Below, in pieces: positions 1 to 53,148 of a stretch of DNA of 64,000 nucleotides. The position numbers and the translations under genes are program-made. The notes beneath the pieces are model-generated. The model ran no database searches. It was given only the letters and a program-made list of their open reading frames with translations, and was not told where the DNA came from. Position 1 is the first letter of the stretch, and the number at the start of each line of letters is the position of its first letter. The stretch is taken from the NCBI GenBank assembly GCA_031256975.1, contig JAIRPN010000004.1, forward strand, positions 124,001 through 188,000, written 5' to 3'. This stretch comes from Verrucomicrobiales bacterium (lineage in GTDB: Bacteria > Verrucomicrobiota > Verrucomicrobiia > Methylacidiphilales > JAAUTS01).

Positions 1-350
1 GGTACTCCAATCCATCGCCAGGCAAATGCCGCCCCGGCCAGCAGCAAGCTGCACAACGGACCGGCGCCGCTAATGACCAGACGCTGCGGGCGGTCGAAGC
101 GGTTTTGAAAGAAGGTCGTCCCGCCCATGCCGTGCAAGGCAATGACCGGATAACCCTGATAACGGCGGACCGCCATCGCGTGCCCCAGCTCATGCCACAG
201 GATGGAAATAAAAATCGCGATCATCCAGGTCAACACGCCAAACCAGGCAGCTTGGCTGGTCATCGAAAAGCCACCCGCGCAGAAAAAGCAAATCAGCCAA
301 AAGAACGGCTGGATTTGAACCGGGAAACCAAATATCGCGAATCGAAGCAT
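1..350 (-). CDS. Site-2-protease-family (M50) metalloprotease, 5' part
   Basis: Reading from an ATG at 350 toward the left edge gives about 116 residues with no stop, so the gene is truncated by the window and only its N-terminus is present. The protein starts with a hydrophobic helix and then has HELGH inside a second hydrophobic segment. This is the zinc-binding HExxH of intramembrane M50 proteases. It is followed by GMGGTTFF and a glycine-rich stretch, as in rhomboid-sized S2P-like peptidases of the SpoIVFB type. The family cleaves transmembrane or membrane-near substrates. The substrate cannot be told. It is transcribed away from the upstream end of the window and follows thrS on the same strand. 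Confidence 0.85.
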   Translation of the reverse strand, partial: MLRFAIFGFPVQIQPFFWLICFFCAGGFSMTSQAAWFGVLTWMIAIFISILWHELGHAMAVRRYQGYPVIALHGMGGTTFFQNRFDRPQRLVISGAGPLCSLLLAGAAFAWRWIGV

Positions 351-435
351 AAGGATTATTTTAACGCTGAAAACGAAAGACGCCGATAATAATTCCGGGA
401 TTCGGCGCCTTCACATTACTCAACCAAGCCGACTA

Positions 436-2271
436 TCAAGCGGAAGCCAACGGCGCCAGTTCACGGTTAGCGACTTCCCTTTGGATGCGCGCCAGGAATT
501 CGCCGAACGCCACCGCGCCCTCATCGCCCTTGCCACGGACACGGACGGCGACTTGTTGCGCTTCCATTTCCTTCTGCCCGATGATCAGCATGTATGGAAC
601 CTTGTCCATCTGCGCACGGCGAATCTTCGCCCCGATCTTATCGGAATGGGTATCCACGCTGTAACGCAATCCCGCCTCTTTCAATTGTTCCGCCAATGAC
701 AAGGCATAGTCGTTCTGGTTATCGGTGATCGGCAATAGCCGCACCTGTTCCGGCGCCAGCCACACCGGGAAAGCTCCGGCGAAATGCTCGATCAGCACGC
801 CGACGAAACGCTCCATCGACCCGAACGGCGCGCGGTGAATCATCACCGGGCGATGCTTCTGGTTGTCCGCACCAACGTAATTCAAGTCAAAACGGATTGG
901 CAGATTATAATCCACCTGCACCGTGCCCAATTGCCATTCGCGTCCGATCACGTCCTTGATGACAAAGTCGATCTTCGGCCCGTAGAACGCAGCCTCGCCG
1001 GCTTCCTCGGTAAACGGCACGCCGAGCGTCTTGGCGGCTTCACGGCAGGCCTGTTCCGCCTTGTCCCAGTTGGCGGCCTCGCCAGTATACTTTTGGGAAT
1101 CAGGATCGCGCAGGCCCACGCGCACGCGGTATTCATGCATGCCCAGCGTGGACAACACGATCTTCACCAATGACAGGCAACCCAGCACTTCCTTGGCAAC
1201 CTGCTCCTCGGTGCAGAATAAATGCGCGTCGTCCTGGGTAAAGCCGCGCACGCGGGTCATGCCGCCGAGTTCGCCCGACTGCTCCCAACGATAGACCGTG
1301 CCAAACTCGGCCAAACGCACCGGCAAATCACGATAGGAACGCGGCTGCGAATCGAAAATCTTGATATGGTGCGGGCAGTTCATCGGCTTCAGCATGAAGC
1401 CATTGATTTCACCCGAGGCCAAACGATTGCTGAGATCTGCGCAGGTTGCCCTTTCATCCTTCAACTTCTGCAAGGTTTCCGGTTCGACGATCGGCGGAAA
1501 TTGCGATTCCTGATAATACGGAAAGTGCCCGGAGGTGCGGTACAGATCCAGCTTGCCAATGTGCGGGGTGAACACCTGCTGGTAGCCCTGTTTCTGCAAC
1601 TCACGCGAAATGAAATTCTGCAATTCCTGACGCACGATCGCGCCCTTGGGCGTCCACAGGATCAGTCCCTGTCCGACCGCTTCGTCAATATGGAACAATT
1701 GCAATTCGCGCCCCAGCTTGCGGTGGTCGCGTTTTTGCGCTTCTTCCAATTGCGTCAAATACTGCTGCAACTCGTCCTTGCTCGGAAACGCCGTGCCGTA
1801 AATACGCTGCAACTGCTTGTTCTTTTCACTGCCACGATGATAGGCTCCGGCGATACTCAGCAACTTGAACGCCTTCAGTCCGGAGGTATTCTTCAGATGC
1901 GTCCCCGCGCACAGATCGATGAATTCGCCATTGCGATAAAACGAAATCGCCTCACCCTCCGGAATGTCATCCAAGCGTCCGAGCTTGTAACGTTCCTGGC
2001 CGAATTCCTTGATTTTTTGGATCGCCTCTTCACGGCTGCATTCCATGCGCTCAAAAGCCTGTTGTTCCTTGGCAATGCGCGCCATCTCGACTTCAAGCTT
2101 GTCCAGGTCCTCGCGGGTAAAGCGGTGTTCCGTGTCAAAATCGTAATAAAAACCGTTGTCCGTGGGCGGACCGATGTCCAGTTGAGTTTCCGGAAAAAGC
2201 CGCAAAACCGCCGTTGCCAAAATGTGCGACGCCGAATGGCGCAACTCTTCCAAGGGAGACATCTGTTTCAT
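436..2271 (-). CDS. thrS: Threonine--tRNA ligase lacking the TGS domain
   Basis: 611 residues, clearly ThrRS. The second additional (editing) domain starts almost at residue 1 with HSASH (His12 and His16), followed by DLCAGTH. The class II core has MNCPHH (zinc-binding Cys and His), motif 2 around YRWEQSGELGG and motif 3 around IHRAPFGSMERF. The anticodon-binding domain covers roughly the last 100 residues (from PVWLAPEQVRLLPI). Typical bacterial ThrRS of about 640 residues begins with a 60-residue TGS domain; here it is missing and there is no room for it upstream in frame. It charges tRNA-Thr in the cytoplasm. Start chosen at the first ATG; MSPLEEL three codons later is possible. The gene carries almost no RTTAGCG sites, unlike its neighbours. 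Confidence 0.97.
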   Translation of the reverse strand: MKQMSPLEELRHSASHILATAVLRLFPETQLDIGPPTDNGFYYDFDTEHRFTREDLDKLEVEMARIAKEQQAFERMECSREEAIQKIKEFGQERYKLGRLDDIPEGEAISFYRNGEFIDLCAGTHLKNTSGLKAFKLLSIAGAYHRGSEKNKQLQRIYGTAFPSKDELQQYLTQLEEAQKRDHRKLGRELQLFHIDEAVGQGLILWTPKGAIVRQELQNFISRELQKQGYQQVFTPHIGKLDLYRTSGHFPYYQESQFPPIVEPETLQKLKDERATCADLSNRLASGEINGFMLKPMNCPHHIKIFDSQPRSYRDLPVRLAEFGTVYRWEQSGELGGMTRVRGFTQDDAHLFCTEEQVAKEVLGCLSLVKIVLSTLGMHEYRVRVGLRDPDSQKYTGEAANWDKAEQACREAAKTLGVPFTEEAGEAAFYGPKIDFVIKDVIGREWQLGTVQVDYNLPIRFDLNYVGADNQKHRPVMIHRAPFGSMERFVGVLIEHFAGAFPVWLAPEQVRLLPITDNQNDYALSLAEQLKEAGLRYSVDTHSDKIGAKIRRAQMDKVPYMLIIGQKEMEAQQVAVRVRGKGDEGAVAFGEFLARIQREVANRELAPLASA

Positions 2272-2293
2272 AAATTGAAGTTCAATGATAGAT

Positions 2294-2339: not shown

Positions 2340-4535
2340 CTATTTCACCTCAATCTCGCCCAAATCAACCTCAATCGGCGAATCCTTCGTCACGCTAAAC
2401 GGCACACGCGTTTCGCCAAACTCCACGCCTTGCGGCAACAAATCCCCCAGTTCCTTCCGCAATGCAGCGCTCGACGGAATCAACAACTCATATTTCCCCA
2501 CCGGCACGCCGTGAAAATAAGGCGTGAATTGCGTACGGTATTCCGACAGCCTGCCCGCTTCCGGTTCCAATTTCACCCGGTAATACAATTTGTCCGCATA
2601 AGCCGATTTCAACTTATAACGGATTTCACTGCCGAATCGCAACGGCACGGTCATCTCGTTTCCCGTCACCTCGCCCGACCAATCAACCGTTCCGGGCAAG
2701 CTCACCGTTAGCGTGTATTTCCCCGCGGCGACTCGCGGCAATACCAGCCGCTCTGTCTCGCCAACCGTCAATTGCGAATCGGAGCCGTACGCATATTCCC
2801 CTTCAGCCACCAACCCGATCCGCATCTCCGCCTTCCGCTTCAACCACACCGCCAATGGACGCGGCAAAACAAAGTTCAGAGTTAGCGGCTTGGTCGCGAT
2901 ATCCATCGGAATAACGGCGGATTCATCCGCCGACGGCACTGGCACTTCGATTTTAAAATATACGGGATCCGCACTAGCTGCACCCTCACTTAACAATACC
3001 GCCTTGGTAATCTCTCCGTCCCATGCCAATAAGCTGTCGCGAGTCACCTGAAAAATCCCATCCGTATCCGCAATCAATTGCCAACTTCGGTTATTCCCCC
3101 ACTTGTCATATAACTTCCATGCCACCTTCGTCTGTCTGCCCAGCGGTTCGCCATTAGCGGTCAACCTAAACCGCAACGGCTGCGCCAGCTGCGACTCATC
3201 CACCTCTTTCCCCAACCTGCGCAGGCATTTGGCCGCATTCTGCGCCACTGTATCGGATGGTTGCCGTAGCAGTTTTTCCAAAATCCCGACACTCTCCGGC
3301 CGATTCAATTCCGCCACCCGGTCCGCCAATACGCCGCCCGCCTCCGGTGGAAGTTTGACATTAGCGAGTGAATTGTACCATTCCAGTATTTTGCGCTGCA
3401 CTTCGTCGTTAGCGGGGTTACTGCCGGTCAGTGGATTAAACCGGAGCGGTCCGCCGACCGTAGATCTGTAAACCCTACTCGTCGGATCACTCGGGGAAAC
3501 GAATACCGCCAACGCGCCAATATAACGAGCCCATCTTTTGGCCGGCGAGTTCTTCGCCAAGTAAAGTAGCTGCGACGCACCCTCACTCCCGCCATACTGT
3601 GTCAGCAAAATCAACGCCACGTTGTCGATGGTAAAATAGCCCGATACCGAACCGGTACCGCCAAAACTGATGGTCTGTAATTCACCGGAATCAATCAAAC
3701 AACCGAGCGACAGTTGACACCAATCCAGATCACACTGAGTCGCCAAGCCGCTAACCGTCAAAAACAATCCTTGCGACGATTGCCTGAAATTGCCACCGTC
3801 GTCGCTAACCGCGAACGCCGACGCCAACGCCTGCACCGCCTGCCCGTCGCGCAACTTCGCCATTAGCGTCAGGTACGAACGGCAACAATCATAATTCCCC
3901 GCTCCGGTGCCACACCAAAAGCCGTACACATGCCTGTCTGCCTCGTCACTCCACAATCCCGATCTGGCATCCCCGCGCAGCAAGCTAACCGCAAAACGCC
4001 AGAACGGCTCGGCATCCTTGAAATAAGGAACGACATCCGGACGTTCTTTCCCGGCGATTCTTTGCGGCAAAGTCAACCGAAGTTGCACGAAGGTTTGCCA
4101 CGTCACTTGCAAGTCGACAGGCATTTTTTGCACATCCGGAGGCATGGTGGGCGACGCTATATATTGTGGGATTCGGTAAAGCGCATAATTACCGCCATGT
4201 TGTTCAGCCCAGACTTTCAACCAAAGGTTCGCTAACGCCGGGAACAACTCCTCCAAATTGAAGCGGTTGGATAATTTCCGGTTATCCACCATCCCGGCAA
4301 AAATCTCCACCAACTGCGGCAAAGTTTTTTCATCACCTTCCGCGCAGGCTTTGGTAAACAGTCGTTGATACTCAAAACTTAGATAGTCCCGGTCTTTTTC
4401 GAGCGGGTAATCCAGCCTTTGCAATTCAGCAACCATCTCTTGGGGAGATTGAATCTTGGCATCCTTCGCCATTAGCGGCAATTGGACGCTAATGATGAGC
4501 GCCAATATCAACCAAGCGGGGGCGAACTTGCTCAT
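2340..4535 (-). CDS. Large secreted protein of unknown function with HEAT-like region
   Basis: 731 residues with a clear Sec signal peptide (hydrophobic residues about 8-23, then LMAKDAK). I do not recognise a family for most of it. Residues about 400-450 (DRVAELNRPESVGILEKLL, QNAAKCLRRLGKE) look like HEAT-type helical repeats. The C-terminal third is beta-rich and resembles carboxypeptidase-regulatory or PEGA-like folds (AAGKYTLTVSLPG). Two Cys pairs (CGTGAGNYDCC) lie near residue 210. The gene holds 12 RTTAGCG/CGCTAAY sites, the densest cluster in the window. One site lies directly upstream of the ATG in a 16-base block that also precedes nuoC (see findings). Cell-envelope location is inferred from the signal peptide only. 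Confidence 0.8.
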   Translation of the reverse strand: MSKFAPAWLILALIISVQLPLMAKDAKIQSPQEMVAELQRLDYPLEKDRDYLSFEYQRLFTKACAEGDEKTLPQLVEIFAGMVDNRKLSNRFNLEELFPALANLWLKVWAEQHGGNYALYRIPQYIASPTMPPDVQKMPVDLQVTWQTFVQLRLTLPQRIAGKERPDVVPYFKDAEPFWRFAVSLLRGDARSGLWSDEADRHVYGFWCGTGAGNYDCCRSYLTLMAKLRDGQAVQALASAFAVSDDGGNFRQSSQGLFLTVSGLATQCDLDWCQLSLGCLIDSGELQTISFGGTGSVSGYFTIDNVALILLTQYGGSEGASQLLYLAKNSPAKRWARYIGALAVFVSPSDPTSRVYRSTVGGPLRFNPLTGSNPANDEVQRKILEWYNSLANVKLPPEAGGVLADRVAELNRPESVGILEKLLRQPSDTVAQNAAKCLRRLGKEVDESQLAQPLRFRLTANGEPLGRQTKVAWKLYDKWGNNRSWQLIADTDGIFQVTRDSLLAWDGEITKAVLLSEGAASADPVYFKIEVPVPSADESAVIPMDIATKPLTLNFVLPRPLAVWLKRKAEMRIGLVAEGEYAYGSDSQLTVGETERLVLPRVAAGKYTLTVSLPGTVDWSGEVTGNEMTVPLRFGSEIRYKLKSAYADKLYYRVKLEPEAGRLSEYRTQFTPYFHGVPVGKYELLIPSSAALRKELGDLLPQGVEFGETRVPFSVTKDSPIEVDLGEIEVK

Positions 4536-5117: not shown

Positions 5118-6014
5118 ATGAAACAATGGTACTACGCCAAAGATGGTCAAAAATTCGGCCCTTTCCAAAAATCCCGTGTTTTGGAACTTTATCAAAAAAG
5201 TGAAATCGCCCCCGGTGATTTGGTCTGGGAGGAAGGAACTGCTGATTGGATAACTGCCGAGCAAGCCTTCGGGCCGCTAACAGCGAGCAGCGACACGCCT
5301 CCGCCAATTCCCGCGACAACTTCCCTCGAAGGCCAAAAATTTGATCCCATCGACTGCATCCAACGAGCCTGGGACTTGATCTGGAAACAACCTGCTTACC
5401 TGATCGGAGGCTGTTTCCTGGCAGTCATCATGGCTTCTGTCACGCAGGTTCCCATGCAAATCGGCTCGCACATGATGGGCTTGGTCAAGCTGCAGGGCTG
5501 GCATTCACCGATCGTCATTAGCGGCATCGTCTTGTATGTCGCCGGGTTCCTGCTGTCCTTCGTCGTCAATCCGCTGGTTTATGGCGGACTGTTCTGGATG
5601 ATCCTGCGGATCGTGCGCGGCAACCAGCCCGATTTCGCCGATCTTTTCATTGCATTCAAAAATTTCAAGCTGGCGCTAACGCTGATCCTAGCCGGGTTGG
5701 CCGTGTCCGCGATCGTCGTGCTTGGATTGATCGCCCTGATCATTCCCGGCATTTATCTGGCCGTCGCTTACAGCTTTGTCACGGTGTTGGTTGTTGACCG
5801 CAAACTCCGCGTGTGGGAAGCGCTGGAATTATCCCGCAAAGTGGTCACCACCAAATGGTGGCCGGTGTTTGCCCTGGGTTTGTTGAATTGCCTCATCGTC
5901 CTGCTGGGAATGCTGGCCTGTTGCGTCGGCCTGTTGGTTGCCATTCCACTGTGCTACACCTCGATACTGTATGCCTACGAAATTTTGTTCCATAACGAAA
6001 AAGGCAACCAATGA
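5118..6014 (+). CDS. GYF_2-domain membrane protein A
   Basis: 298 residues. Residues 1-50 are a GYF_2 (DUF4339) domain: MKQWYYAKDGQKFGPFQ, then DLVWEEG and ADWITAEQAF. This small beta-alpha domain is thought to bind peptides or to act as an adaptor. A proline-rich linker (about 56-70) follows. The rest is a membrane domain with about five or six transmembrane helices, resembling DUF975 or the membrane part of glycerophosphoryl diester phosphodiesterases (QRAWDLIWKQPAYLIGG, LIIPGIYLAVAYSF). The GYF_2 end is cytoplasmic by inference. It overlaps the next gene by four bases (ATGA), which indicates translational coupling. Confidence 0.88.
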   Translation: MKQWYYAKDGQKFGPFQKSRVLELYQKSEIAPGDLVWEEGTADWITAEQAFGPLTASSDTPPPIPATTSLEGQKFDPIDCIQRAWDLIWKQPAYLIGGCFLAVIMASVTQVPMQIGSHMMGLVKLQGWHSPIVISGIVLYVAGFLLSFVVNPLVYGGLFWMILRIVRGNQPDFADLFIAFKNFKLALTLILAGLAVSAIVVLGLIALIIPGIYLAVAYSFVTVLVVDRKLRVWEALELSRKVVTTKWWPVFALGLLNCLIVLLGMLACCVGLLVAIPLCYTSILYAYEILFHNEKGNQ

Positions 6015-6626: not shown

Positions 6627-7634
6627 ATGAATTCATCATTTTCATTCGACATCCTGAAACGCCCGCGCCGCAACCGGCGCAACGCCGCGATCCGCTCGTT
6701 GTTGACCGAGACGCATTTGTCGCCGTCGCAACTGGTATTCCCGGTTTTCGTGAAGGACGGAACGTCTCCCTCGGAAGACATCGCCTCACTGCCCGGTATC
6801 AAGCGTTACAACCGTGCCGACCTGCTGAAGGAATGTAAAACCCTGCTCAAGCTCGGCGTTAGCGCCCTGGCTTTGTTTCCGGTCGTTGACCCGGCCTTGA
6901 AGGACGCTAACGGCAAGGAATCGCGCAATCCGGATAATCTGCTTAATTCCATTTCGCGTGAAATCAAGCAGCGCTTCCCCGAGATGGTGCTAATCGCCGA
7001 TGTCGCGCTTGATCCCTACACCACGCACGGCCACGACGGCATTCTCGACGCTAACGGCGATGTTGCCAATGATCCGACTGTCGAGGCGCTCATGTCCATG
7101 GCCACGCTCCAGGCCGAGGCGGGGATCGACTATGTCGCCCCCTCCGACATGATGGACGGCCGTATCGGCGCCATTCGCCGTGCCCTCGACGCCAAGGATT
7201 TCAGCCACACCGGCATCATCGCCTATTCGGCCAAATTCGCCTCGGCCTTTTACGGCCCCTTCCGCGACGCTATTGGCAGCCAGCGTCCGCCCGGTTCCTA
7301 CCTAGACAAAAAGACCTATCAACTCAATCCGCCAAACCCGCGCGAAGCGATCCGTGACGCCCTGCTGGACGAGGAGGAAGGCGCCGACTCGCTGATGGTG
7401 AAACCGGCCGGCTTGTACCTGGACATCATTGCCAAATTGCGTGAGAAAACCAACTTGCCCATTAGCGCCTACCAAATCTCGGGTGAGTACGCGCAGATTC
7501 ACGCCACCGCCCAGCGTGGCTGGTTGAATCTGGAAGCTGCCCGCGACGAATCGCTAATCGCCATCAAACGGGCCGGTGCTGATTTCATTTTGACCTATTT
7601 TGCCAAATCCTACGCGGAATCCTATTCCCGTTAA
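6627..7634 (+). CDS. hemB: Porphobilinogen synthase (delta-aminolevulinate dehydratase)
   Basis: 335 residues from the ATG at 6627; a TTG two codons earlier is possible but less likely. It condenses two aminolevulinate molecules to porphobilinogen in tetrapyrrole synthesis. Schiff-base lysines sit in AYSAKFASAFYGPF and LMVKPAGLYLD. The metal loop reads ADVALDPYTTHGHDGIL, without the three cysteines of zinc enzymes, so this is a Mg-type enzyme. hemL and hemN elsewhere in the window belong to the same pathway but are not linked in an operon. No convincing Shine-Dalgarno sequence precedes the start. Five RTTAGCG/CGCTAAY sites fall inside the gene. Confidence 0.98.
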   Translation: MNSSFSFDILKRPRRNRRNAAIRSLLTETHLSPSQLVFPVFVKDGTSPSEDIASLPGIKRYNRADLLKECKTLLKLGVSALALFPVVDPALKDANGKESRNPDNLLNSISREIKQRFPEMVLIADVALDPYTTHGHDGILDANGDVANDPTVEALMSMATLQAEAGIDYVAPSDMMDGRIGAIRRALDAKDFSHTGIIAYSAKFASAFYGPFRDAIGSQRPPGSYLDKKTYQLNPPNPREAIRDALLDEEEGADSLMVKPAGLYLDIIAKLREKTNLPISAYQISGEYAQIHATAQRGWLNLEAARDESLIAIKRAGADFILTYFAKSYAESYSR

Positions 7635-9137: not shown

Positions 9138-11957
9138 ATGCAACTTCAGCCTTCCGCTTCCAGCGTTACTAATAAGGACTTAAACGGTATTCATCGCAAC
9201 GGTTCCCAACCCCGGGGTACCGTCGCTAACGGCGACAACGCCGGCCTGCTCCAGGATTATTACGAGCAATGGCTGGTCGATCCCAGTTCGGTCGACGCCG
9301 CTTGGCGCGCCTTTTTCGAGGGCTTTGAACTTGGCTGCCAGCAATTGCCAGCGCGTGGCAAGTCCACGGCTGCCGTCAGCGCCGCCCCGGCCGGTTCCGA
9401 GGCTGAACGCCAATACCGCCTGAAACAGGCCTCCATTTATAATCTGCTATTTGCCTATCGCACCCTTGGCCATCACCTGGCTCACCTTGACCCGTTGGAA
9501 ATCGCCAAACCGATCGAAACCGAGCTCGACCTCAAATATTTCAAGCTCGACGAAAGCGACTTGGATACCGTATTCGACAGCGGCAAGCTCGCGGGCGGCG
9601 GCGACCGCACCCTGCGCGAAATCCTCGCCATCCTGAAGCAAACTTATTGCGGTCCCATGGGCGCCGAGTTCATGCACATTCAAAACTTCGGCATCCGCAG
9701 TTGGATGCGTGACACCATGGAAATGTGCCAGAACATCCCCAATTTCAGCAGCCAGAAAAAACGCCGGGTTCTCAATCGCGTGCTGGCGGCAGAAATGTTC
9801 GAAAAATTCCTGCACACGCGTTATGTCGGGCAAAAACGCTTCGGCCTGGAAGGCGGCGAGTCGCTAATCCCCATGCTCGACGCGGCGATTGAAAAAGCCC
9901 CGGCATTCGGCGTGCAACGCTTTGTGATCGGCATGGCCCACCGCGGCCGCTTGAACGTCCTGGCCAACATCATGAACATGAGCTACAAGAGCCTGTTCGA
10001 CAAGTTTGCCGACAACTATTACCCCGACAGTGTGCAGGGTGACGGCGATGTGAAATACCACCTCGGTTATGACGCGACGCTAACCACCTCCGGCGGTCAA
10101 AAGGTCGATGTCAGTCTCGCGCCGAATCCAAGCCACCTGGAAGTCGTCAACCCGGTCGTTGAAGGCAAAGCCCGCGCCTGGCAACGCATCCTGGGCGACA
10201 CCGAGGAACGCAAGAAAGTCGTGCCAATCCTGATCCACGGCGACGCCGCTTTCATCGGCCAGGGCATCGTGCAAGAAACCATCAACATGTCGCAACTGCC
10301 GGGCTATCGTACCGGCGGCACGATCCATATCGTGATCAACAACCAGATCGGTTTCACCACCATCCCGTCCGATGCCCGTTCGAGCATTTATTGCACCTCG
10401 ATTGGCAAGATGAACGGCATTCCGATCCTGCACGTCAACGGTGACTTCCCTAACCATGCCGTGTACTGCATGGAATTGGCCCTGGAATACCGCCAGCGCT
10501 TCAGCCGCGACATCATCCTTGATTTGTCCTGCTACCGCCGCCACGGCCACAACGAAGGCGATGAACCGAATTTCACCCAGCCGACGATGTATCAAACCAT
10601 CGACGAACATCCGCTGATCAGCGAATTGCTGATTCCGCGCCTGACCAGCAACGGCGATATCACCCAGGAACGTGCCGACACCTATGTGCAGCGTTTCAAT
10701 GATTTGCTCAACAACGCGTTGACCGAATCCCGCAACACGGTCAAATCCTTCGCGCCGAAAATCAAACCGTCATTAGCGACCCCGTCCTTGCAGCAGCCTG
10801 TTAACACCAAGGTCGCCGCCGGCGATCTCAAGCGCATCGGCCTCTCGATCACTGAGCCGCCGAAAAATCTCAATCTCAACCCCAAGATTTTGAAAATGCT
10901 GGAGCACCGCCGCAGCATGATCGACGGCAAGAGCCTGCTTGATTGGTCAACCGCCGAGTCGCTGGCCTTTGGCACCCTGCTGGACCAAGGCATTCCGGTG
11001 CGCTTGTCGGGCCAGGACTGCCGCCGCGGCACTTTCAGCCAGCGCCATGCGGTGGTTTACGACGTGCACACCCGCGAACGTTACATCCCGTTGCACAACA
11101 TCTCGCCGAAACAGGCCGAATTCAACGTGTACAACAGCCCGCTGTCTGAAAACGGCATCCTCGGTTTCGAATTTGGCTACACGCTGGACTTCCCGCAAAT
11201 GCTCTGCATGTGGGAAGCGCAATTCGGCGACTTCGCCAACGGTGCGCAAACCGTGATCGACCAGTATATCGTCAGCTCCGAATCCAAATGGGGCGTGAAC
11301 TCCCGTTTGGTGCTGCTCCTGCCGCATGGCATGGAAGGCCAGGGCCCTGACCACAGCAGCGCCCGCCTGGAGCGTTTCCTGCAAGCCTGCGCCGAGGACA
11401 ATATCCAGGTCGCCAACCTCACCACACCCGCTAACTACTTCCATATCCTGCGCCGGCAAATGCTCCGCGACACGCTGAAACCGCTGGTCATCATGACCCC
11501 AAAGAAATTGCTGCGTTTGAAAGAATGCGGTTCCAGCATGGAAGACCTCGCTAACGGCGAATTCCAGGAAGTCATCAGTGACGCTAACAGCGACAGCAAA
11601 TCCGCCAAGCGCCTGATCCTCTGCAGTGGCAAGGTGTTTTACGATCTCGACGCTTACCGCCAAAAGGAAGGCATCAAGGACGCCCATATTATCCGCATCG
11701 AGCAACTTTATCCGTGGCACATCAAGAAACTCGAAGCCGTCCGCGACGCCTACAAGCATGTCAAGCAAGTGGTCTGGTGCCAGGAAGAATCGCATAACAT
11801 GGGTGCCTGGTCCTACGTCGAACCCCGCCTGCGCGCGTTGTTCGGCTGCGACATCGCCTACGCGGGCCGCGAAGCCTCGGCCAGCACGGCCACCGGCGCC
11901 ATCTCCATCCACAACCTCGAGCAAGCCGAACTGGTGCAACAGGCCTTCAAGATTTGA
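9138..11957 (+). CDS. sucA: 2-oxoglutarate dehydrogenase E1 component
   Basis: 939 residues, full length for an OdhA/SucA E1. The N-terminal E1o extension is visible (LLQDYYEQWLVDPSSVDAAW), which in this family helps bind E2. Thiamine-diphosphate and active-site motifs follow: GMAHRGRLNVLAN, GDAAFIGQGIVQET, NNQIGFTT and HGHNEGDEPNFTQP. The C-terminal transketolase-like part has GQDCRRGTFSQRH and LPHGMEGQGPDHSSAR. It decarboxylates 2-oxoglutarate and reductively succinylates the lipoyl group of SucB in the TCA cycle. It is the first gene of a sucA-sucB-lpd operon. Seven RTTAGCG/CGCTAAY sites lie within it. Confidence 0.98.
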   Translation: MQLQPSASSVTNKDLNGIHRNGSQPRGTVANGDNAGLLQDYYEQWLVDPSSVDAAWRAFFEGFELGCQQLPARGKSTAAVSAAPAGSEAERQYRLKQASIYNLLFAYRTLGHHLAHLDPLEIAKPIETELDLKYFKLDESDLDTVFDSGKLAGGGDRTLREILAILKQTYCGPMGAEFMHIQNFGIRSWMRDTMEMCQNIPNFSSQKKRRVLNRVLAAEMFEKFLHTRYVGQKRFGLEGGESLIPMLDAAIEKAPAFGVQRFVIGMAHRGRLNVLANIMNMSYKSLFDKFADNYYPDSVQGDGDVKYHLGYDATLTTSGGQKVDVSLAPNPSHLEVVNPVVEGKARAWQRILGDTEERKKVVPILIHGDAAFIGQGIVQETINMSQLPGYRTGGTIHIVINNQIGFTTIPSDARSSIYCTSIGKMNGIPILHVNGDFPNHAVYCMELALEYRQRFSRDIILDLSCYRRHGHNEGDEPNFTQPTMYQTIDEHPLISELLIPRLTSNGDITQERADTYVQRFNDLLNNALTESRNTVKSFAPKIKPSLATPSLQQPVNTKVAAGDLKRIGLSITEPPKNLNLNPKILKMLEHRRSMIDGKSLLDWSTAESLAFGTLLDQGIPVRLSGQDCRRGTFSQRHAVVYDVHTRERYIPLHNISPKQAEFNVYNSPLSENGILGFEFGYTLDFPQMLCMWEAQFGDFANGAQTVIDQYIVSSESKWGVNSRLVLLLPHGMEGQGPDHSSARLERFLQACAEDNIQVANLTTPANYFHILRRQMLRDTLKPLVIMTPKKLLRLKECGSSMEDLANGEFQEVISDANSDSKSAKRLILCSGKVFYDLDAYRQKEGIKDAHIIRIEQLYPWHIKKLEAVRDAYKHVKQVVWCQEESHNMGAWSYVEPRLRALFGCDIAYAGREASASTATGAISIHNLEQAELVQQAFKI

Positions 11958-12017: not shown

Positions 12018-13208
12018 ATGATATCGATCAAAGTTCCTTCAGTCGGCGAATCCATTACCAGCGGCGTGCTTGGCGCCTGGAAAAAGAAAAACGGCGAATA
12101 TGTGAAAGAGGGCGATGTCCTGCTGGAAATTGAAACCGAGAAAGTCACCTCGGAAGTCTTTGCCGAAAAATCCGGCGTGCTGAAACAACTGGTCGCCGAA
12201 GGAACCGAAGTCAAGATCGGCCAAGTCGTCGGTGAACTGGATGAAACCGCCAAGGCTCCTGCCGGCGGCGCAGCCCCGGCCGCTGCTCCCACCAAAAGCG
12301 AGATTCCCCTTTCCCCCGCCGTACGCAAGTCCGTCGAGGAACAAAACATCGATCCGTCCTCCATCCAAGGCAGCGGCAAGGGAGGCCGCATCCTGAAGGA
12401 AGATTTGTCCAGGCCGCAAGCCCCGGTTATCGAACCGACCCGCGTGCCTTCCGGTCCCGCACAGGAACACAAACCCGCGGCTCCGGTGGTAGTCAGCGAT
12501 GCCAATGGCGAACGCATTACCCGCAAGAAGATGAGCCCGTTGCGCAAAAAGATTGCCGAACGCCTGGTTGCCGCCCAGCAGGATGCCGCGATGCTCACCA
12601 CGTTCAACGAGGTGGATTTGAGCAATGTCATTGAGTTGCGCAAGAAACACCAGGATCGTTTCGTCGCCAAGCACGGTGTGAAACTTGGCTTCATGTCCTT
12701 CTTCGTCAAAGCCGCAATCCATGCCCTGAAACAGGTTCCGCAAGTCAACGCCCGCATCGACGGCGAGGAAATTGTCGAAAACCATTTTTACGATATCGGT
12801 ATCGCCATCTCGACCGACAAGGGATTGCTGGTGCCGGTGCTGCGTGACGCCGACCAATACAACCTGGCGCAGATTGAACAAGCCATCGCCGATTACTCGA
12901 AAAAGGCCCGTGACGGCAAAATCACCCTGCCCGACCTCGAAGGCGGCGTATTTACCATCACCAACGGCGGCGTGTTCGGCTCGATGCTTTCGACCCCGAT
13001 CCTGAATCCTCCGCAAAGCGCGATTCTGGGCATGCACGCGATCATCGAACGCCCGGTCGCCGTTAGCGGCCAGGTCGTCATCCGTCCGATGATGTACCTC
13101 GCCCTGAGCTACGACCATCGTCTGGTCGATGGCAAGCAGGCCGTCACTTTCCTCGTGCGCATCAAGGAATACATCGAAAATCCCGGTCTGGCCTTGCTGG
13201 ACCTTTAA
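12018..13208 (+). CDS. sucB: Dihydrolipoyllysine-residue succinyltransferase (E2 of OGDH)
   Basis: 396 residues with the usual three parts. A lipoyl domain occupies residues 1-77, with the lipoylated Lys in [11 protein letters not shown] (43). A peripheral-subunit-binding domain lies near 95-130 ([24 protein letters not shown]). The catalytic domain lies at about 170-396, with the active-site His and Asp in SYDHRLVDG. Alanine- and proline-rich linkers separate them. It transfers the succinyl group to CoA and forms the core of the complex. It starts 60 bp after sucA and is followed by lpd after 21 bp. Confidence 0.98.
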
Positions 13209-17761: not shown

Positions 17762-17879
17762 AAGCTGGATATGAAACCAGAACGGACCTGAAAAGGCAAT
17801 GCCTGTTTAAATCCGGGATTACTCCGAGGTCCCGACAAGTTTCGTCATTAGCGTCATCTGCCAATGACTTCTCTTGGGA

Positions 17880-24773: not shown

Positions 24774-25174
24774 TTGCCCTCCTTGCGCTTGAACATCTTC
24801 AGCATGCGGTCGGTAATCAGGAACCCGCTGACAATGTTTGTCACCGAGGCCACAATGGCGATCAAACCGAGAATATTGATCCAAGTCGGTTCGTCGTTAG
24901 CGACGTAGGAACGCCCTCCCACCAGAATCGCCCCAACCACCGCAATGGCCGAGATGGCATTGGTCAGCGACATCAACGGCGTGTGCAACAATCGCGACAC
25001 CTGGTTGATCACCTGCAACCCGATGAAGGTGGACAGCATGAACACGAAAATCATGCCCACGTAATCAGGCATCTCCGTATCGACGTAACCGCTCAACTTG
25101 ATCCCTGCCGGTTCCTGCGCCATGAGCACCGATCCGGACACTAACAATAAAACTATCGGTAATGATTTTTTCAT
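24770..25174 (-). CDS. pntAB: NAD(P) transhydrogenase subunit alpha part 2, with N-terminal extension
   Basis: 134 residues. The core (GMIFVFMLSTFIGLQVINQV, LHTPLMSLTNAISAIAVVGA, then a third helix and a basic tail) is the normal alpha-2 subunit of about 95 residues. Before it sits an extra segment MKKSLPIVLLLVSGSVLMAQ, which looks like a cleavable signal peptide followed by a 15-residue linker. This would make the N-terminus periplasmic. The start at 25174 lies only five bases after the pntAA stop. Confidence 0.93.
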   Translation of the reverse strand: MKKSLPIVLLLVSGSVLMAQEPAGIKLSGYVDTEMPDYVGMIFVFMLSTFIGLQVINQVSRLLHTPLMSLTNAISAIAVVGAILVGGRSYVANDEPTWINILGLIAIVASVTNIVSGFLITDRMLKMFKRKEGK

Positions 25175-47461: not shown

Positions 47462-49594
47462 TTACTTCGTCGGACCAATGCGCAATCCGGCCACGTTTCC
47501 GGCGGCATCACTGGCACGGATATACAAGGGCTTGCCCTTCTCCCGTTTGATATGGTACTGCTCCTGCTTGCTGTCGCAGATGCCATCCACCGGCTGCACC
47601 TCGTCGTAATCCTGCGCATTGGAGGAAATCAGCACCGAGTCAATCCGGCTGATCGCGTCACTGACCTGGATATCAACCGATTCGTCGTCCTGTTTCAGCA
47701 CGGTGATCTTCGGCGGGGTGTTATCAATCTGGAACACGTCGCTGATCTTTTGCACGGTATAAAACTTGCCCTGCTTGTTGCCGGGAGAATCGTCCGCGGT
47801 GATCCGCACAACATAATTGCCATCGGCCCAGCCGCTGGCATCCCAGCTGTACAAGGGCTTGTCGAGCTTGTCCGCCAGCAAATCCCAGTCCTTCTGGCTT
47901 TCGGCACGGATTTCCACCTTGTATTGCAAGTCGTCATCATTCGGATCGCCGGCCTTCCACACCACCGTGCGCAAGCCTGACGCGGCAAGCAGCATATATT
48001 GCTGCGGCGGGGTCGGCATTGCGGAGCCGCTGCCGCCTTTTAGCAATTGGTCGATCGTGGTGGCTTTTGAACTCCCCTGCGGCATCGGCATTTCCTTGCA
48101 GCCGATGCCCGGGTCCAGCACCGTGACCTGGCTGATGACCGGCGGCTGGTTTTGTGGCAGATATGCCAGTTCCACCCGGCTCACCTGGCCGTCGCTAATG
48201 CTGAGCTTGAATTGCAGATAACGCGCCGACGGGCTCTGGACTTTGCCATCCTTCAAATCCTGCCACGCATACCACGACTTGTCCGGATCGGAAGTATTGC
48301 CGGAACGGGTTTGCACCGTCCACTTGCCGGAACCGCCAACGTCCAACGCACCCCAGCGGGCGAACAATGACGAATCAATCACCTTGGATTTGTAAACTCC
48401 GTTCTCAGCGCCGGTGCCAAGGGCGATTCCTTTTGCCAGGTTGCTGGTCAACGCCGTCACTTGGTCGGAATTCTTTGTCGCCAGCAAGCGTGTCACGTCC
48501 TTGGCTTCCAGCTTGCCGACCAGTTCCATTTGCTCGTCCTTGGTGTTGAAACGGTACAGCTTGCCATCGCCCCCGGTGCCGATCAGCACACCACTCGTCG
48601 TTAGTGCCAATGAGTAAATCGAACCGTCTGTCCTGCCAACCACTTCGGGGTACAAATCCTTGCGCAGGCGGTACAGCACCGACTTTTCACTCGAGGAAGA
48701 TTTGCTGCCACTGCTCGCCCCGGCGGATACCGCGCGACTCAACGCCGCCGCCATCGCCTTGGCCACTTCGGAACCCTCGCCTTTGCCATCACCACCGGTG
48801 CCGCTAACCACCACCGCGGCTGCCTTGGCGGGTTGCGATTTGATATCGCGTTTGCCGGTCGCGGCCACATAGATGATGTCACCGCTAACCGTGATCGCGG
48901 TGATTTCGGAATAAGCCGCCTGCAGCAATACCACCGCTTGGTTGGCACCGCTGATGCGATACAGCAAACCCTTGCCCGAACTGCCCGCCAGCAAATTACC
49001 ATCGGCATCAAAACCCAGACAGCGGATGTTCGGTTCGTCACTGTCGTAATACACCTCGCCCTTGTCCTTGGCGCTAACCTTGAAAATCTTGCCGTTGCCG
49101 CCGGTCGCGGCATACAGGTTGCCGGCCTTGTCGAACACCATGTCCCAGACATATTCCTCGCCGGTGTTGAAATACTCCTCGGCCTTGCCGCCGCTAATGC
49201 GGAAAATCTTGCCCTTCGGCGACGACGCCACGAACACCTCGCCCTTGGCGTTTTGCGCCACGGCATAGACGTCGCTCTCGTTGAATTTGGTAATTAATGA
49301 CGGCTCACCATTGGCACCGACTTTGTACACCTCGCCCTTCGGCCCGGTGCCGATATAAAGATCGCCATTAGCGCTGTCACGCACGCCGGACCAGATGTTC
49401 AGGTCCTTCAAGTCAAACAGTTGCCTGGTCGCCAAGCCCGGCTTCAGCACGCCCGGCTGGGTCAGCGTCACCGACACCAAATCACCCGCGGCGAAATCGT
49501 CAAAGTTGCTCACCGTCTCGCGCTGCACTGAACCCGCCATCAGCGGCGATCCCATCGTTAGCGCCATCAACAACAATCCAACCGGCATCTTCAT
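47462..49594 (-). CDS. Secreted beta-propeller protein with C-terminal Ig/fn3-like part
   Basis: 710 residues with a signal peptide (MPVGLLLMALTMGSPLMAG). Residues about 50-400 hold propeller blades such as DLYIGTGPKGEVYKVGANG, GEVFVASSPKGKIFRISGG and NLYAATGGNGKIFKVSAKD, similar to two-component-regulator or WD40-like propellers. A Gly/Ser-rich low-complexity insert sits near 285-310. The last 200 residues are beta-sandwich-like (LQYKVEIRAESQKDWDLLA, DNTPPKITVL). Likely ligand or protein binding in the periplasm. It shares the strand with the S55 protease gene, which starts upstream and ends 13 bp before it. Confidence 0.85.
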   Translation of the reverse strand: MKMPVGLLLMALTMGSPLMAGSVQRETVSNFDDFAAGDLVSVTLTQPGVLKPGLATRQLFDLKDLNIWSGVRDSANGDLYIGTGPKGEVYKVGANGEPSLITKFNESDVYAVAQNAKGEVFVASSPKGKIFRISGGKAEEYFNTGEEYVWDMVFDKAGNLYAATGGNGKIFKVSAKDKGEVYYDSDEPNIRCLGFDADGNLLAGSSGKGLLYRISGANQAVVLLQAAYSEITAITVSGDIIYVAATGKRDIKSQPAKAAAVVVSGTGGDGKGEGSEVAKAMAAALSRAVSAGASSGSKSSSSEKSVLYRLRKDLYPEVVGRTDGSIYSLALTTSGVLIGTGGDGKLYRFNTKDEQMELVGKLEAKDVTRLLATKNSDQVTALTSNLAKGIALGTGAENGVYKSKVIDSSLFARWGALDVGGSGKWTVQTRSGNTSDPDKSWYAWQDLKDGKVQSPSARYLQFKLSISDGQVSRVELAYLPQNQPPVISQVTVLDPGIGCKEMPMPQGSSKATTIDQLLKGGSGSAMPTPPQQYMLLAASGLRTVVWKAGDPNDDDLQYKVEIRAESQKDWDLLADKLDKPLYSWDASGWADGNYVVRITADDSPGNKQGKFYTVQKISDVFQIDNTPPKITVLKQDDESVDIQVSDAISRIDSVLISSNAQDYDEVQPVDGICDSKQEQYHIKREKGKPLYIRASDAAGNVAGLRIGPTK

Positions 49595-49607: not shown

Positions 49608-51344
49608 TTATTGAATCTTAACCCTGACTTCGCTCTGTCCCGACACCACGCCCGGCAACAAAACTTCCTGCTGGCTCCAAACCTTCGGCATTTCCTGCAG
49701 ATTATCCTTCACCAGCGAGTTCGACTGGTTGACTTGCGCAATCGAGGGCGGCAGGTCGGTCTGCCTCTGGTCCGGACGGTTGATGCCCGTGCCATAGGTC
49801 AGCAACCGGACATAGAGTCCGTCGTTGCGATACTCCCGCTGCGAGGATTTGACAATTTGTTCCGGCGAGTCCGCGTTGTAAAACATCGCGTCAAACATCT
49901 TGTGCCGCTGCAAATCCGCCCCGGAACCAACGCTAATGGCGATATCCCCGTCCTTCAATTGTTCATTCAACTTGACGGTGAATTCCCTGGTCAGGGTCTT
50001 GCCCAGGTCGTTCTTCAGCTTGGCGATAATCCGCACCTTGCCGAGGGGTTCAACCTTGTCCTTGTCGACACTGACCGAATCCAGCGACCACACGCTGTCC
50101 TTTTCGTAAGTCTGCACCGACAACTTGACCTGCTCCAACTTCATCAACTTCGGGAACTGCGAATACATCATGAACACCGGCCGCAGTTGCTCAAACAACG
50201 CCGACATGCGGGCCGAGGTTCCGCCGCTGTACACGCCGTCCAGCTTCACCGGTGGCAGGCCGCTAAAGGTGATCTCCCCGTTCAAGCGCAAAGTCACCTT
50301 GTAGGAATAATCCTGCCCGCCTTCCAACGCCTCGGACATCAGGATCGACAGCAACAGCGGCACCACGCGGTAATCGGTCGCCATCTGGCCGCGCGCAGGC
50401 GGACGCTGTTCCCCATTGTGGGTAAAGTCGATTTCATAGGAAGCCAGTTTCGGCACCACACCAAGCTTCCCCGCCACCGCCGACAAGCGGTCCTGTTTCA
50501 GGGTGCCGACAATCTTGCCGGTATTCGACAGCTTGTAGGGATATTCATAGCTCGGCAGCACGGAAATAATCTCGGCCTGTGCGAAGGGAAACTCCACCGA
50601 ACCCACGCCAAACATCGGATGGCCGAATGCCAGCACCTTGTCGCCATCCATTGCCGTCACCGTGCCGGTACCCGCCGCATTGATGTCACCGGAAATCAGC
50701 ACCACCGCCAACGGCGAACCGGGAGCGATTGCGGCCCCTTCGACTGAACCGGAACTCGACCCGCCCGCCACCGGCATAAACAAACCGTCCTTGGGGAATA
50801 ACGGAGCCAGCAATTGCTGCATCTGCTCGTTCCAACCGCTAATGGCCAAGGGCAGCGACAGGAACCCGCCGCGATTATCCACCCTGGCTTGGGGAACCAA
50901 CAGACCATCCGTAGTCGTGGTTAGCGGGAACGGATTATTGTCGTCGTCGGCAGCGTCCTTGCGTTCTCCCACATCAATCATGTCCTTGATCGGCGTGAAC
51001 CCGCAATGCCCGTCCTTCTCGAAACTTCCCAGCCGCCGCGACAACGCACCCACCAGTTTACCGTCAATGTACAACGGCGAACCGCTCATCCCGTGCACCG
51101 CCTCGGTCAGCTTGGTTTTCTCGTCAACCAGCTTGGCGATGATCAAATCCTTCCCCGGGCCGAAAGCATTGTGCTGCACGCCGAGAATCTCCGTGTCGAG
51201 TTCGACAATCTGCGTCCCCTGCATCACCGTCAGCGTCTTGCCATGCATGCCGGGCTTCAGCTCTTCAACCGGAAAAAGTGGCGGGAACGCCGCGAAGGAA
51301 CGACCCGCTGACAACGAGCAGAGAATGATTAACAGCCAACGCAT
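49608..51344 (-). CDS. SpoIVB-type (S55) serine protease domain protein
   Basis: 578 residues from the ATG at 51344, giving signal peptide MRWLLIILCSLSAGRSFA; an upstream ATG at 51383 is possible. Residues about 20-190 form an S55-like domain with the nucleophile Ser in AVHGMSGSPLYIDGKLVGAL and an earlier LKPGMHGKTLTVMQG. This family includes SpoIVB and many PVC-group exported proteins. The remaining 380 residues are beta-rich. Two-gene operon with the propeller protein downstream, so the propeller may be a partner or substrate. Confidence 0.87.
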   Translation of the reverse strand: MRWLLIILCSLSAGRSFAAFPPLFPVEELKPGMHGKTLTVMQGTQIVELDTEILGVQHNAFGPGKDLIIAKLVDEKTKLTEAVHGMSGSPLYIDGKLVGALSRRLGSFEKDGHCGFTPIKDMIDVGERKDAADDDNNPFPLTTTTDGLLVPQARVDNRGGFLSLPLAISGWNEQMQQLLAPLFPKDGLFMPVAGGSSSGSVEGAAIAPGSPLAVVLISGDINAAGTGTVTAMDGDKVLAFGHPMFGVGSVEFPFAQAEIISVLPSYEYPYKLSNTGKIVGTLKQDRLSAVAGKLGVVPKLASYEIDFTHNGEQRPPARGQMATDYRVVPLLLSILMSEALEGGQDYSYKVTLRLNGEITFSGLPPVKLDGVYSGGTSARMSALFEQLRPVFMMYSQFPKLMKLEQVKLSVQTYEKDSVWSLDSVSVDKDKVEPLGKVRIIAKLKNDLGKTLTREFTVKLNEQLKDGDIAISVGSGADLQRHKMFDAMFYNADSPEQIVKSSQREYRNDGLYVRLLTYGTGINRPDQRQTDLPPSIAQVNQSNSLVKDNLQEMPKVWSQQEVLLPGVVSGQSEVRVKIQ

Positions 51345-51413: not shown

Positions 51414-51822
51414 GTTCATGCAAAGCCGCCAAGTTGACGCAAAGAACGCCAAGTTTTATAATTGATTGACTATTCGGGCCACCCCACTCTTGAACAACAC
51501 CGAACCAAAGTTGATTACCAATCCCAGCTTGAGATTGGTAAGTTTCAAATAAGTAATCACCTGTTTCTTATGCACAGGCAACAGAGCTTCCACCGACTTC
51601 AACTCCACAATAACCTTGTCTTCCACAATTAAATCCGCCTTGAACGCATTAGGAACCGTCAGATCTTCATAACGGAAGCGGCACCGTCACTTGTCGTTTA
51701 AACGGGACCCGACGTTTCTCTAACTCTGAAAACAAATATCCACTAACAACGCAGCTATCTCATTCTCTATCCTCATAAAAAACTTAGCGTTCTTTGCGTC
51801 AACTTGGCGGCTTTGCGCGAAC
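51414..51822. mobile_element. Inverted-repeat element enclosing a decayed GxxExxY gene
   Basis: Left arm 51414-51457 (GTTCATGCAAAGCCGCCAAG, then TTGACGCAAAGAACGCCAAG). Right arm 51780-51822 is its reverse complement (CTTAGCGTTCTTTGCGTCAA and on). Arms of the same family flank 60596-60837 and 62294-62406. The 320 bp between the arms is a GxxExxY-type pseudogene. The element fills the gap between the S55 protease start and the hemL stop. The family is not named here because I cannot check it against known elements. Confidence 0.7.
51456..51776 (-). pseudogene. GxxExxY-family protein, degraded
   Basis: Reading from an ATG at 51776 gives MRIENEIAALLVDICFQ and then a stop. In another frame the gene continues with ELEKRRVPFKRQVTVPLPL and a second stop. 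The C-terminal half is intact: NAFKADLIVEDKVIVELKSV, then LLPVHKKQVITYLKL and LGLVINFG, ending VARIVNQL. The central block containing the name-giving GxxExxY is deleted, so the gene has at least one deletion and two frame breaks. Intact members are about 125 residues and may be PD-(D/E)XK-like nucleases. Confidence 0.8.
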
Positions 51823-51825
51823 CTC

Positions 51826-53103
51826 TTAAAGACTCCGCTCCATCGCCGTTAGCGTCTTGCGGATTTCCACCTCGCCATGTGCCAGCGAGATGAAACAAGT
51901 CTCGAATTGCGACGGCGGCACATAGACTCCGTTTTCCAGCATGCCGTGAAAATACTTGTTGAAGGCGGCCAAATCTGCAGTCTTGGCGTCTTCCAGATTG
52001 TGCACTTCCTTGTCGGTGAAGAACAGGCACCACATGGATCCGATGCGGTAAAACTTGTAGCCCAATTTCTTCCCCGCCAACAATTCCCGCACCCCCGATT
52101 CCAGCAGGGCACCGAGCTGTTCCAGTTTCACAAAACCATCGTTAGCGTCCAGTTCCCGCAACTGCGCCAGACCCGCCGCCATCGCCAGCGGATTACCCGA
52201 CAAGGTTCCCGCCTGATACACCGGCCCCAGCGGGGCCAGCTTCTCCATAATCGCCCGCTTGCCGCCGAAGGCCCCCACCGGCAACCCGCCGCCAATCACT
52301 TTGCCAAATGCCGACAGATCCGGCGTAATCCCGGTCAAGCCCTGCACCCCCGCCTTGCCCACGCGAAACCCGGTCATCACTTCATCAAAAATCAACACGA
52401 TGCCGTGTTTCGCCGTCAGCCTGCGTAATTCCTGCAAAAATCCCGCCTGCGGCAGGATCAATCCGGCATTGGCAGGTATCGGCTCCAGAATCACCGCCGC
52501 CACCTGTTCACCCACCTCACGCAATACCTTTTCCAGCACGGGCAAATCATTGAACGGCAAACAAAGGGTTTCCGCCGCCAGCGACGCGGGAATCCCGGCC
52601 GAGTCGGGATGACCCAGCGTTAGCGCCCCAGATCCCGCCTTGACCAATAACGAATCCACATGGCCGTGATAGCAGCCCTCGAACTTGATGATCTTGTCGC
52701 GCCCTGTGTAACCGCGTGCCAGGCGGATGCAGGACATGGTCGCCTCGGTTCCCGAATTGCACATCCGCACCATCTCCAGCGACGGCATCCACGCCGTCAC
52801 CATCTCCGCCATTTCCACTTCCAGTGCACCAGGCACACCAAAACTGGTGCCCCGTTCTAACGCCGCACCAACCGCACACTTCACACATTCAGGCGCGTGT
52901 CCGAGAATCGCCGGACCCCAAGTGCAAACATAGTCCACGAAGGCATTGTCATCGACATCATAAAGATAAGCCCCGTTGGCACGCGCGGCAAAAAACGGCT
53001 TTCCCCCTACTGCCCGGAAAGCCCTCACCGGCGAATTCACCCCGCCGGGAATCACCACTTTCGCTCGCTCAAATAACGCCTCGGATTTCGAAAAATTCAT
53101 CAC
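51826..53103 (-). CDS. hemL: Glutamate-1-semialdehyde 2,1-aminomutase
   Basis: 425 residues. Start region [25 protein letters not shown]; the aminotransferase class III core has [11 protein letters not shown] and the PLP Lys in [16 protein letters not shown]. It makes 5-aminolevulinate in the C5 pathway, whose next enzyme HemB is at 6.6 kb. Two adjacent ATGs at 53103 and 53100. A GTTAGCG site overlaps the 5' region and three others lie in the gene. The stop is four bases from an inverted-repeat arm. Confidence 0.97.
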
Positions 53104-53148
53104 CGCATCCTAGACCGCTAACGGCGAAGCAAAAGCAAATGTTTTGCA

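Follow-up and report, generated by a model that had tools for sequence, protein, structure and literature searches.

A dense two-strand chromosomal word with a one-letter dialect, a probable DNA uptake sequence in Verrucomicrobiota

Introduction

What would lead a bacterial chromosome to repeat one seven-letter word on both strands, far beyond what its base composition predicts? The question is raised by a 64-kb stretch of a Verrucomicrobiales bacterium (hereafter the window; C4:124001-188000 of its genome, G000, which we call the focal genome), most of which is studded with RTTAGCG or its complement CGCTAAY. To our knowledge, two bacterial families, unrelated to each other, are the only ones with known DNA-uptake 'self' words, and a search of titles and abstract openings in the openly licensed literature found no publication on an uptake sequence in Verrucomicrobiota. 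Here we describe the word, its one-letter dialect in four congeners and the replacement of one form by the other in place, and we argue, with a probability of roughly 0.7, that RTTAGCG is the core of a 14-bp DNA uptake (self-recognition) sequence, one that may have evolved independently in this phylum.

A short word in excess on both strands

An exact count of the window found 55 forward copies of RTTAGCG and 58 reverse copies (CGCTAAY), the same 113 that an initial annotation had counted by hand, with first and last copies where it had placed them (Table 1). The sister words YTTAGCG and CGCTAAR, which serve as a control, occur 5 and 11 times (16 in total; about 15 had been claimed). Base composition predicts 8.4 copies of CGCTAAC and 6.7 of ATTAGCG, or 15.1 together, giving a 7.5-fold excess, close to the roughly sevenfold excess over about 15 originally estimated. 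Markov models of orders 1 to 4 predict 10.2, 7.3, 17.7 and 74.5 copies, the high-order expectation being large because high orders absorb the word itself. Our own open reading frame (ORF) model places 13 of the 113 in non-coding DNA or at the edge of a gene, in line with the dozen or so reported earlier, and the remaining 100 bear out the annotation's remark on several coding frames: they occupy four of the six possible frames, and the other two, in which a stop codon would arise, are empty.

The excess extends throughout the focal genome (2.76 Mb in 19 contigs, 87% complete), in which CRTTAGCG occurs 2,320 times (1140 + 1180) and the same word read backwards 273 times (137 + 136). The initial annotation had staked its claim on two points, and on both it stands: the genome-wide count is far from expectation, and the R and Y forms are far from equally frequent (113 versus 16 in the window). 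Aligning 639 TTAGCG copies from a 450-kb sample extended the word to about 14 bp, TCRYCRTTAGCGnC, with RTTAGCG as its core and the composition T(0.67) C(0.64) G/A(0.61/0.30) C/T(0.52/0.33) C(0.53) G/A(0.53/0.36) TTAGCG n C(0.61); flanks beyond the 14 bp are little conserved. This logo, which is non-palindromic, is visible from the window copies alone, and 31 full 12-mers lie in the window. The focal form can also be given as TCRYCRTTAGCG, with TCACCGTCAGCG as its counterpart in congeners; further sequences of the two forms are TCGCCGTTAGCGTC (focal) and TCACCGTCAGCGGC (congener).

Neither codon use nor strand accounts for these copies. When synonymous codons were permuted within each of 798 focal coding sequences, 206 copies of RTTAGCG (s.d. 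13) were expected and 1131 observed, a 5.5-fold excess, with the Y control YTTAGCG at 149 observed and 141 expected; the T-form 12-mer reached 279 against 13. The annotation's view that codon bias does not explain the word is thereby upheld. Across 1.03 Mb of focal sequence, coding copies fall in two same-strand frames (438 and 115) and two antisense frames (341 and 253), with zero in the two stop-creating frames, and by the same ORF model density is 1.25 per kb in coding and 1.52 per kb in non-coding DNA. In a separate count, 844 of 1,030 copies lie inside coding sequence. Orientation is balanced, both by GC skew in 10-kb bins as a proxy for replication direction (687 with, 666 against) and relative to genes (553 with, 594 against), and so, as had been proposed, unlike FtsK-orienting polar sequences (KOPS) or Chi. 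The genome thus holds a short, non-palindromic word in extreme genome-wide excess on both strands, in coding and non-coding DNA alike and beyond what codon use produces.

Some copies of the word are paired. In the 1.03-Mb sample, 16 pairs face each other as CGCTAAY...RTTAGCG with 11-14 bases between the cores, compared with 3 in the opposite arrangement, and 13 of the 16 are intergenic. Ten of these 13 lie 12-29 bases past the stop codon of the preceding gene; six are followed by at least four T, and three others have a run of A before them. Three chosen pairs folded at -20.3, -21.8 and -22.7 kcal/mol (z -5.2 to -6.0). In the focal species, therefore, inverted pairs of the word form terminator-like hairpins.

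Congeners use a one-letter dialect

CRTTAGCG was rarer than its reversal in all 60 relatives first searched, and numbers only 75, 154, 122 and 76 in the congeners G001 to G004. Counting words de novo in 181 kb from these four genomes instead brought up CRTCAGCG, whose logo reads T C A C C G TCAGCG n C. The sister-species comparison suggested by the initial annotation thus has a divided outcome: the word as first written is not shared, and a C dialect of it, TCACCGTCAGCGnC, is carried by all four congeners, the focal genome having the T form. The dialects differ at position 8 (T in the focal genome, C in the congeners), and at position 3 G and A, respectively, are favoured. Whole-genome counts of CRTCAGCG are 5857, 5335, 6544 and 4759 in G001 to G004, compared with 613 in the focal genome, 333 in G005 and 437 in G006; these last three, two- to fourfold above the reversal, are background, given reversed controls of 83-257. 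By IMP dehydrogenase, the nearest named relatives, at 84-86% identity, are four 'Verrucomicrobiales bacterium' genomes assembled from metagenomes; the C dialect is among the top words at three of the four relatives' loci (L009, L011 and L012), and at L010 the top words differ. ComEC of the focal genome is 62-67% identical to that of the four congeners.

A joint 12-mer covering both dialects, TCRYCRTYAGCG, occurs 1160 times in the focal genome (control 4) and 1352-1818 times in the congeners (controls 5-7), and at most 70 times in the other 57 genomes of the order. In a search of 387 genomes across the phylum, which included the focal genome, did not draw G001 to G004 and shared seven genomes with the order search, the top count outside the genus was 128, in genomes of 5.7 Mb and 7.2 Mb. 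Altogether, the density of the 12-mer does not exceed about 23 per Mb in any of 436 genomes outside the genus, compared with 421 in the focal genome and about 480-790 in the congeners. Many outside genomes surpass the reversed count (for example G012, 70 versus 4), which makes reversal a poor control for the 12-mer, and codon shuffling is the better one. By this measure each dialect is confined to its own side: the C form shows no excess in focal coding sequences (18 versus 17.7) and the T form none in those of congeners (2 versus 2.9), whereas the congener C form stands at 217 versus 28 with coding sequences over 4.5 kb dropped; in the congeners the Y control, YTCAGCG, also lies somewhat above expectation (249 versus 152). 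De novo scans of 8-mers and 10-mers found no word of comparable strength in 116 kb of G005 or 180 kb of G006; the scans also took in 20 kb each of G007, G010, G012 and G014.

Other repeated sequences came to light in the same genomes. Loci L026, L028, L032 and L036, which come from other Verrucomicrobiota and include one titled Pedosphaera sp., carry a dense, palindrome-like word of another kind, GCTTGGCCAA, HIP1-like in shape; CTTGGCCA, for example, has 40 copies in 21.5 kb of L032 versus 1.6 expected. G012 has GC-rich words in excess. In 180 kb of G006 (L100, L101, L158-L164), the 10-base words AACCCGGATG, ATCCGGGTTA and AGCCTGCATA, perhaps a small dispersed repeat, have 12-16 copies each versus 0.3-0.8 expected. 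L098 (G005:C1) holds adjacent 7-base tandem arrays at about 5162-5298, with around 10 copies of CACCATT and around 9 of CAGTTGT.

Words are rewritten in place

Alignments between focal and congener sequence (67 kb at 75% identity, every focal position used once) contain 97 focal RTTAGCG copies aligned without gaps. Fifty-five of these read RTCAGCG in the congener, 2 are unchanged and 40 differ in other ways. As controls we pooled 242 entries, each a permuted word with one chosen T that has 15 or more copies; the highest-scoring of them overlap the word itself. Of their 9,052 sites, 1,878 were unchanged and 452 had the T alone replaced by C. Swaps were made in 20 of 29 silent CTA/CTG Leu sites, 25 of 30 silent GTT/GTC Val or ATT/ATC Ile sites, 7 of 18 sites in the Asn/Asp frame and the single site at a gene edge (1/1). 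Counted by codon, 10 of the 19 Asn residues encoded within the word are matched by Asp in the congener, compared with 57 of 798 elsewhere. An earlier, redundant count had 53 of 96 focal words swapped and 1 kept; in the reverse direction, the focal counterparts of 210 congener words were 53 T forms, 19 C forms, 6 words with a different letter at the dialect position and 132 other sequences. Words in the same place are thus rewritten between the dialects, sometimes at the cost of an Asn-to-Asp change.

Type IV pilus and competence genes

Several parts of a DNA-uptake apparatus are encoded in the focal genome. ComEC scores above the cut-off for its N-terminal subfamily domain and below that of the full-length ComEC/Rec2 equivalog model; DprA is present, as are two tandem PilT/PilU proteins above cut-off. 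A PilC/GspF-like protein reaches 424.9 bits, compared with the GspF cut-off of 424, and PilB/GspE-like ATPases fall below curated cut-offs, one of them given in part only. Secretins of three congeners have a full-length domain match (E near 1e-44), and G002 has others. The best HHH matches in the focal genome are Tex and a 1,238-residue ORF; the strong HHH_3 match was rejected as ComEA, being Tex.

The focal genome also encodes 25 prepilin-like N-termini, some in Verru_Chthon cassettes. Sets of pilin-like genes from such cassettes lie on contig C9 (L139) and probably also on C15, C1 and C14 (L140, L063 and L141); Verru_Chthon proteins B and C in L139 were named by NCBIfam and the other sets by likeness. 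A general comparison of pilins, a partial sample for which ComP itself was not a query, gave no genus-restricted receptor candidate.

Word-poor islands

RTTAGCG runs at about 1-3 per kb over long stretches, broken by CRTTAGCG-free blocks of 7-42 kb. The almost word-free block at C2:33-58 kb (L064) holds three nitrogenase-component genes (component-1 type), a NifB-like radical SAM protein and a homocitrate-synthase-like protein, and a TraG-like ATPase, slightly below its curated cut-off, lies in the word-free block preceding it. A 42-kb CRTTAGCG-free block at C4:206-248 kb (L114, L115) contains runs of same-strand genes. Pfam gave no match for four large proteins of this block and PHROGs none for the three of them that were run; PHROGs, run on nine island proteins in all, returned one weak terminase match, and the C4 island is not classed here as a prophage.

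Of 107 genes in surroundings poor in the word (<0.25 per kb), 3 have a 60%-identity homologue in the congener sample, compared with 46 of 528 other genes, a deficit that supports acquisition weakly, the congener sample being small and the trend over rising density classes non-monotonic (10.1, 13.8, 7.4 and 5.9%). Absence of the word is by itself no proof of acquisition, because the word-free end of the window seems, by reading, to carry ordinary genes (RNase PH, HemN and an NtrC-type regulator). That CRTTAGCG-free stretch continues past the window to about C4:202324, with a few RTTAGCG copies beyond the window. The C-dialect-rich block at C2:0-20 kb, whose flanking logo resembles the congener word, is not counted as a congener import: C2:672-19139 (L116) is a single ORF of 6,155 residues, autotransporter-like by reading and of GC about 0.62, whose many RTCAGCG copies lie mainly on the coding strand, as expected of the Val-Ser codons GTC AGC.

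Table 1 Location of the word and of its full 12-mers in the window
Feature	Positions	Strand	Remark
113 RTTAGCG/CGCTAAY copies	68..53122	both	start of first copy to end of last copy
12-mer TCACCGTTAGCG	2702..2713	+	
12-mer TCGCCATTAGCG	3148..3159	+	
12-mer TCGTCGTTAGCG	3403..3414	+	
12-mer TCGCCATTAGCG	3857..3868	+	
12-mer TCGCCATTAGCG	4466..4477	+	
12-mer TCATCATTAGCG	4487..4498	-	
12-mer TCGTCATTAGCG	5512..5523	+	
12-mer TCGCCGTTAGCG	7049..7060	-	
12-mer TCGCCGTTAGCG	9224..9235	-	
12-mer TCGCCGTTAGCG	11549..11560	-	
12-mer TCGCCGTTAGCG	13057..13068	+	
12-mer TCGTCATTAGCG	15565..15576	-	
12-mer TCGTCATTAGCG	17842..17853	+	non-coding
12-mer TCGCCATTAGCG	18683..18694	-	
12-mer TCGTCGTTAGCG	20015..20026	+	
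12-mer TCGTCGTTAGCG	24891..24902	+	
12-mer TCGTCATTAGCG	25235..25246	+	
12-mer TCGCCGTTAGCG	25391..25402	+	
12-mer TCGCCGTTAGCG	25965..25976	-	
12-mer TCACCGTTAGCG	28585..28596	+	
12-mer TCGTCGTTAGCG	29123..29134	-	
12-mer TCACCGTTAGCG	29273..29284	+	
12-mer TCATCGTTAGCG	29754..29765	-	
12-mer TCGTCGTTAGCG	29849..29860	-	
12-mer TCGCCATTAGCG	31267..31278	+	
12-mer TCGTCGTTAGCG	31573..31584	+	
12-mer TCGCCATTAGCG	33111..33122	-	
12-mer TCGCCATTAGCG	49362..49373	+	
12-mer TCGCCATTAGCG	49931..49942	-	
12-mer TCGCCGTTAGCG	51843..51854	+	
12-mer TCGCCGTTAGCG	53116..53127	-	last copy; non-coding or gene edge
RTTAGCG-free end of window	53128..64000		last 11 kb

Comparison with known chromosomal words

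Four kinds of repeated word invite comparison. HIP1 of cyanobacteria is likewise a very frequent dispersed word without a mobile flank, but HIP1 is a palindrome, and TCRYCRTTAGCGnC is none and has dialects and inverted terminator pairs besides; it is therefore not a member of the HIP1 class. Chi and KOPS, also short and frequent in chromosomes, are polar, unlike the balanced word described here, which shows no replication-linked bias and so does not belong with them. The initial annotation had named both uptake sequences and HIP1 as analogues; a non-palindromic word with a one-letter dialect and inverted terminator-like pairs favours the former over the latter.

The available text on the DNA uptake sequences (DUS) of Neisseriaceae (Frye 2013, PMC3630211) describes abundances such as 5,918 kingDUS in 2.4 Mb, inverted pairs located at terminators, and dialects that differ by one or a few letters in step with the core-genome tree, nearly all of these dialects giving a stop in one frame; uptake words at terminators also appear in the portion available of PMC1852404. 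The word resembles DUS in being short and non-palindromic, in occurring in thousands of copies in coding and intergenic DNA, in its inverted terminator pairs and in its one-letter dialect, the dialects of DUS following phylogeny (PMC3630211, as available). It differs from DUS in phylum and sequence, in the failure to identify a ComP or to find ComEA, in the smaller share of words in inverted pairs and in that uptake is here inferred from the genomes. Compared by eye, the consensus lacks the CTG core of GCCGTCTGAA-type sequences, which aligns with CAG in the congeners and TAG in the focal genome, and we do not place it in the DUS family. With the uptake signal sequences (USS) of Pasteurellaceae, Hin-USS AAGTGCGGT and Apl-USS ACAAGCGGT in the accessible part of PMC12616744, it shares enrichment, use in terminators and a core with weaker flanks; its sequence is different and without an AT-rich tail, and the logo, having neither the AAGTGCGGT nor the ACAAGCGGT core with such a tail, excludes it from that family. 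AGCGG is common to Apl-USS and the congener word TCAGCGG, a match that may be due to chance.

Discussion

Were the word an uptake sequence, a putative type IV pilus-associated receptor would bind TCRYCRTTAGCGnC on extracellular double-stranded DNA, PilT-type retraction would draw the DNA in, ComEC would carry one strand across the inner membrane, and DprA and RecA would recombine it. Preferential uptake of word-bearing fragments would copy words born by mutation back into the population, and words would build up on both strands at any place that tolerates them, be it a permissive codon frame, intergenic DNA or an inverted pair that doubles as a terminator. A shift of the receptor's specificity by one core letter could then rewrite same-place words genome-wide. 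From these patterns we infer recognition of the word in uptake, competence of the species and, tentatively, the direction of the dialect change.

Several observations weigh against this account. ComEA was found neither in the focal genome nor in the four congeners, and PilQ was not found in the focal assembly, which is 87% complete; of the competence genes that the initial annotation had proposed to look for, ComEC and DprA were thus found and ComEA and PilQ were not. PilQ is unproven because the sole focal secretin matches, at C10, lie about 2 kb from a distant PilT-family ATPase match, a locus that we take for a tad-type pilus. The incomplete assemblies gave no DprA from G002 and no PilT above cut-off from G001. 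Nor does the machinery track the word, since ComEC, DprA and PilT are present in G005 and G006, which are without it. Among 114 prepilin-like sequences, from pilin regions that were partly sampled (G000, G001, G002, G003, G005 and G006, with G001 and G002 partial and G004 not fetched), there was no genus-restricted pilin receptor candidate. The paired share of the focal sample, 32 of over 1,300 words or about 2%, stands against about 10% of known uptake words in inverted repeats as given in the available part of PMC1939737. Only 2 of 13 congener pairs (8-16 bases between cores) are intergenic, so the terminator habit holds for the focal species alone. Finally, no swap was seen in the Leu/Ser frame (0/7) and 2 of 12 in intergenic DNA; most swaps therefore fall in silent frames.

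That ComEA and PilQ were not found in the focal genome would fit a rival reading, in which the word, HIP1-like or nucleoid-organising, is recognised inside the cell by a DNA-binding protein or a modification enzyme and is kept frequent by selection or drive unrelated to uptake, the dialect reflecting altered specificity of that protein. Such a target could well be dense, genome-wide and genus-wide; HIP1-type words exist without known uptake, and other Verrucomicrobiota carry a dense palindrome-like word. It accords poorly with a non-palindromic word in inverted terminator-like pairs, with the letter-for-letter swap of 55 of 97 aligned sites, and with islands nearly free of the word (one with the nif cluster), where an architectural site would nonetheless be expected; we consider it unlikely. 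A polar word in the manner of Chi or KOPS, steering RecBCD/AddAB or FtsK, would also be short and frequent, as Chi is, yet the balance by GC skew and by genes largely refutes this idea and leaves it very improbable.

Inverted pairs at gene ends might also recall a dispersed mobile repeat (repetitive extragenic palindromes or miniature inverted-repeat transposable elements) or a terminator family spread by transposition. We reject this origin, to which we grant scarcely any chance, as flanks beyond the 14 bp show little conservation, most copies are coding and just 16 inverted pairs were found in the 1.03-Mb sample. Codon usage or repetitive protein motifs, such as autotransporter Val-Ser repeats, can create a similar word, as the 6,155-residue ORF illustrates with its RTCAGCG copies mostly on one strand; as the source of the word itself they are refuted by the codon shuffle with its clean Y control, and words in antisense frames and between genes, together with the congener 12-mer excess that persists when long coding sequences are dropped, reduce their likelihood to practically nil. 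An uptake sequence is the reading that we prefer because no rival explains the inverted terminator pairs, the in-place swaps and the balanced orientation together.

We accordingly lean towards a third independently evolved uptake-sequence system, the first outside Proteobacteria, in which a one-letter change of the core went with the rewriting of thousands of sites in place, sometimes with an amino-acid change, and possibly with a DNA-uptake machine that has no recognisable ComEA. If so, a third case in another phylum would mean that self-recognising transformation evolves repeatedly. The five related genomes with their two dialects would offer a natural experiment on a receptor and thousands of sites changing together, one that bears on whether uptake-driven molecular drive or selection is the origin of such words, and natural competence would be indicated for bacteria that are represented here solely by metagenome-assembled genomes.

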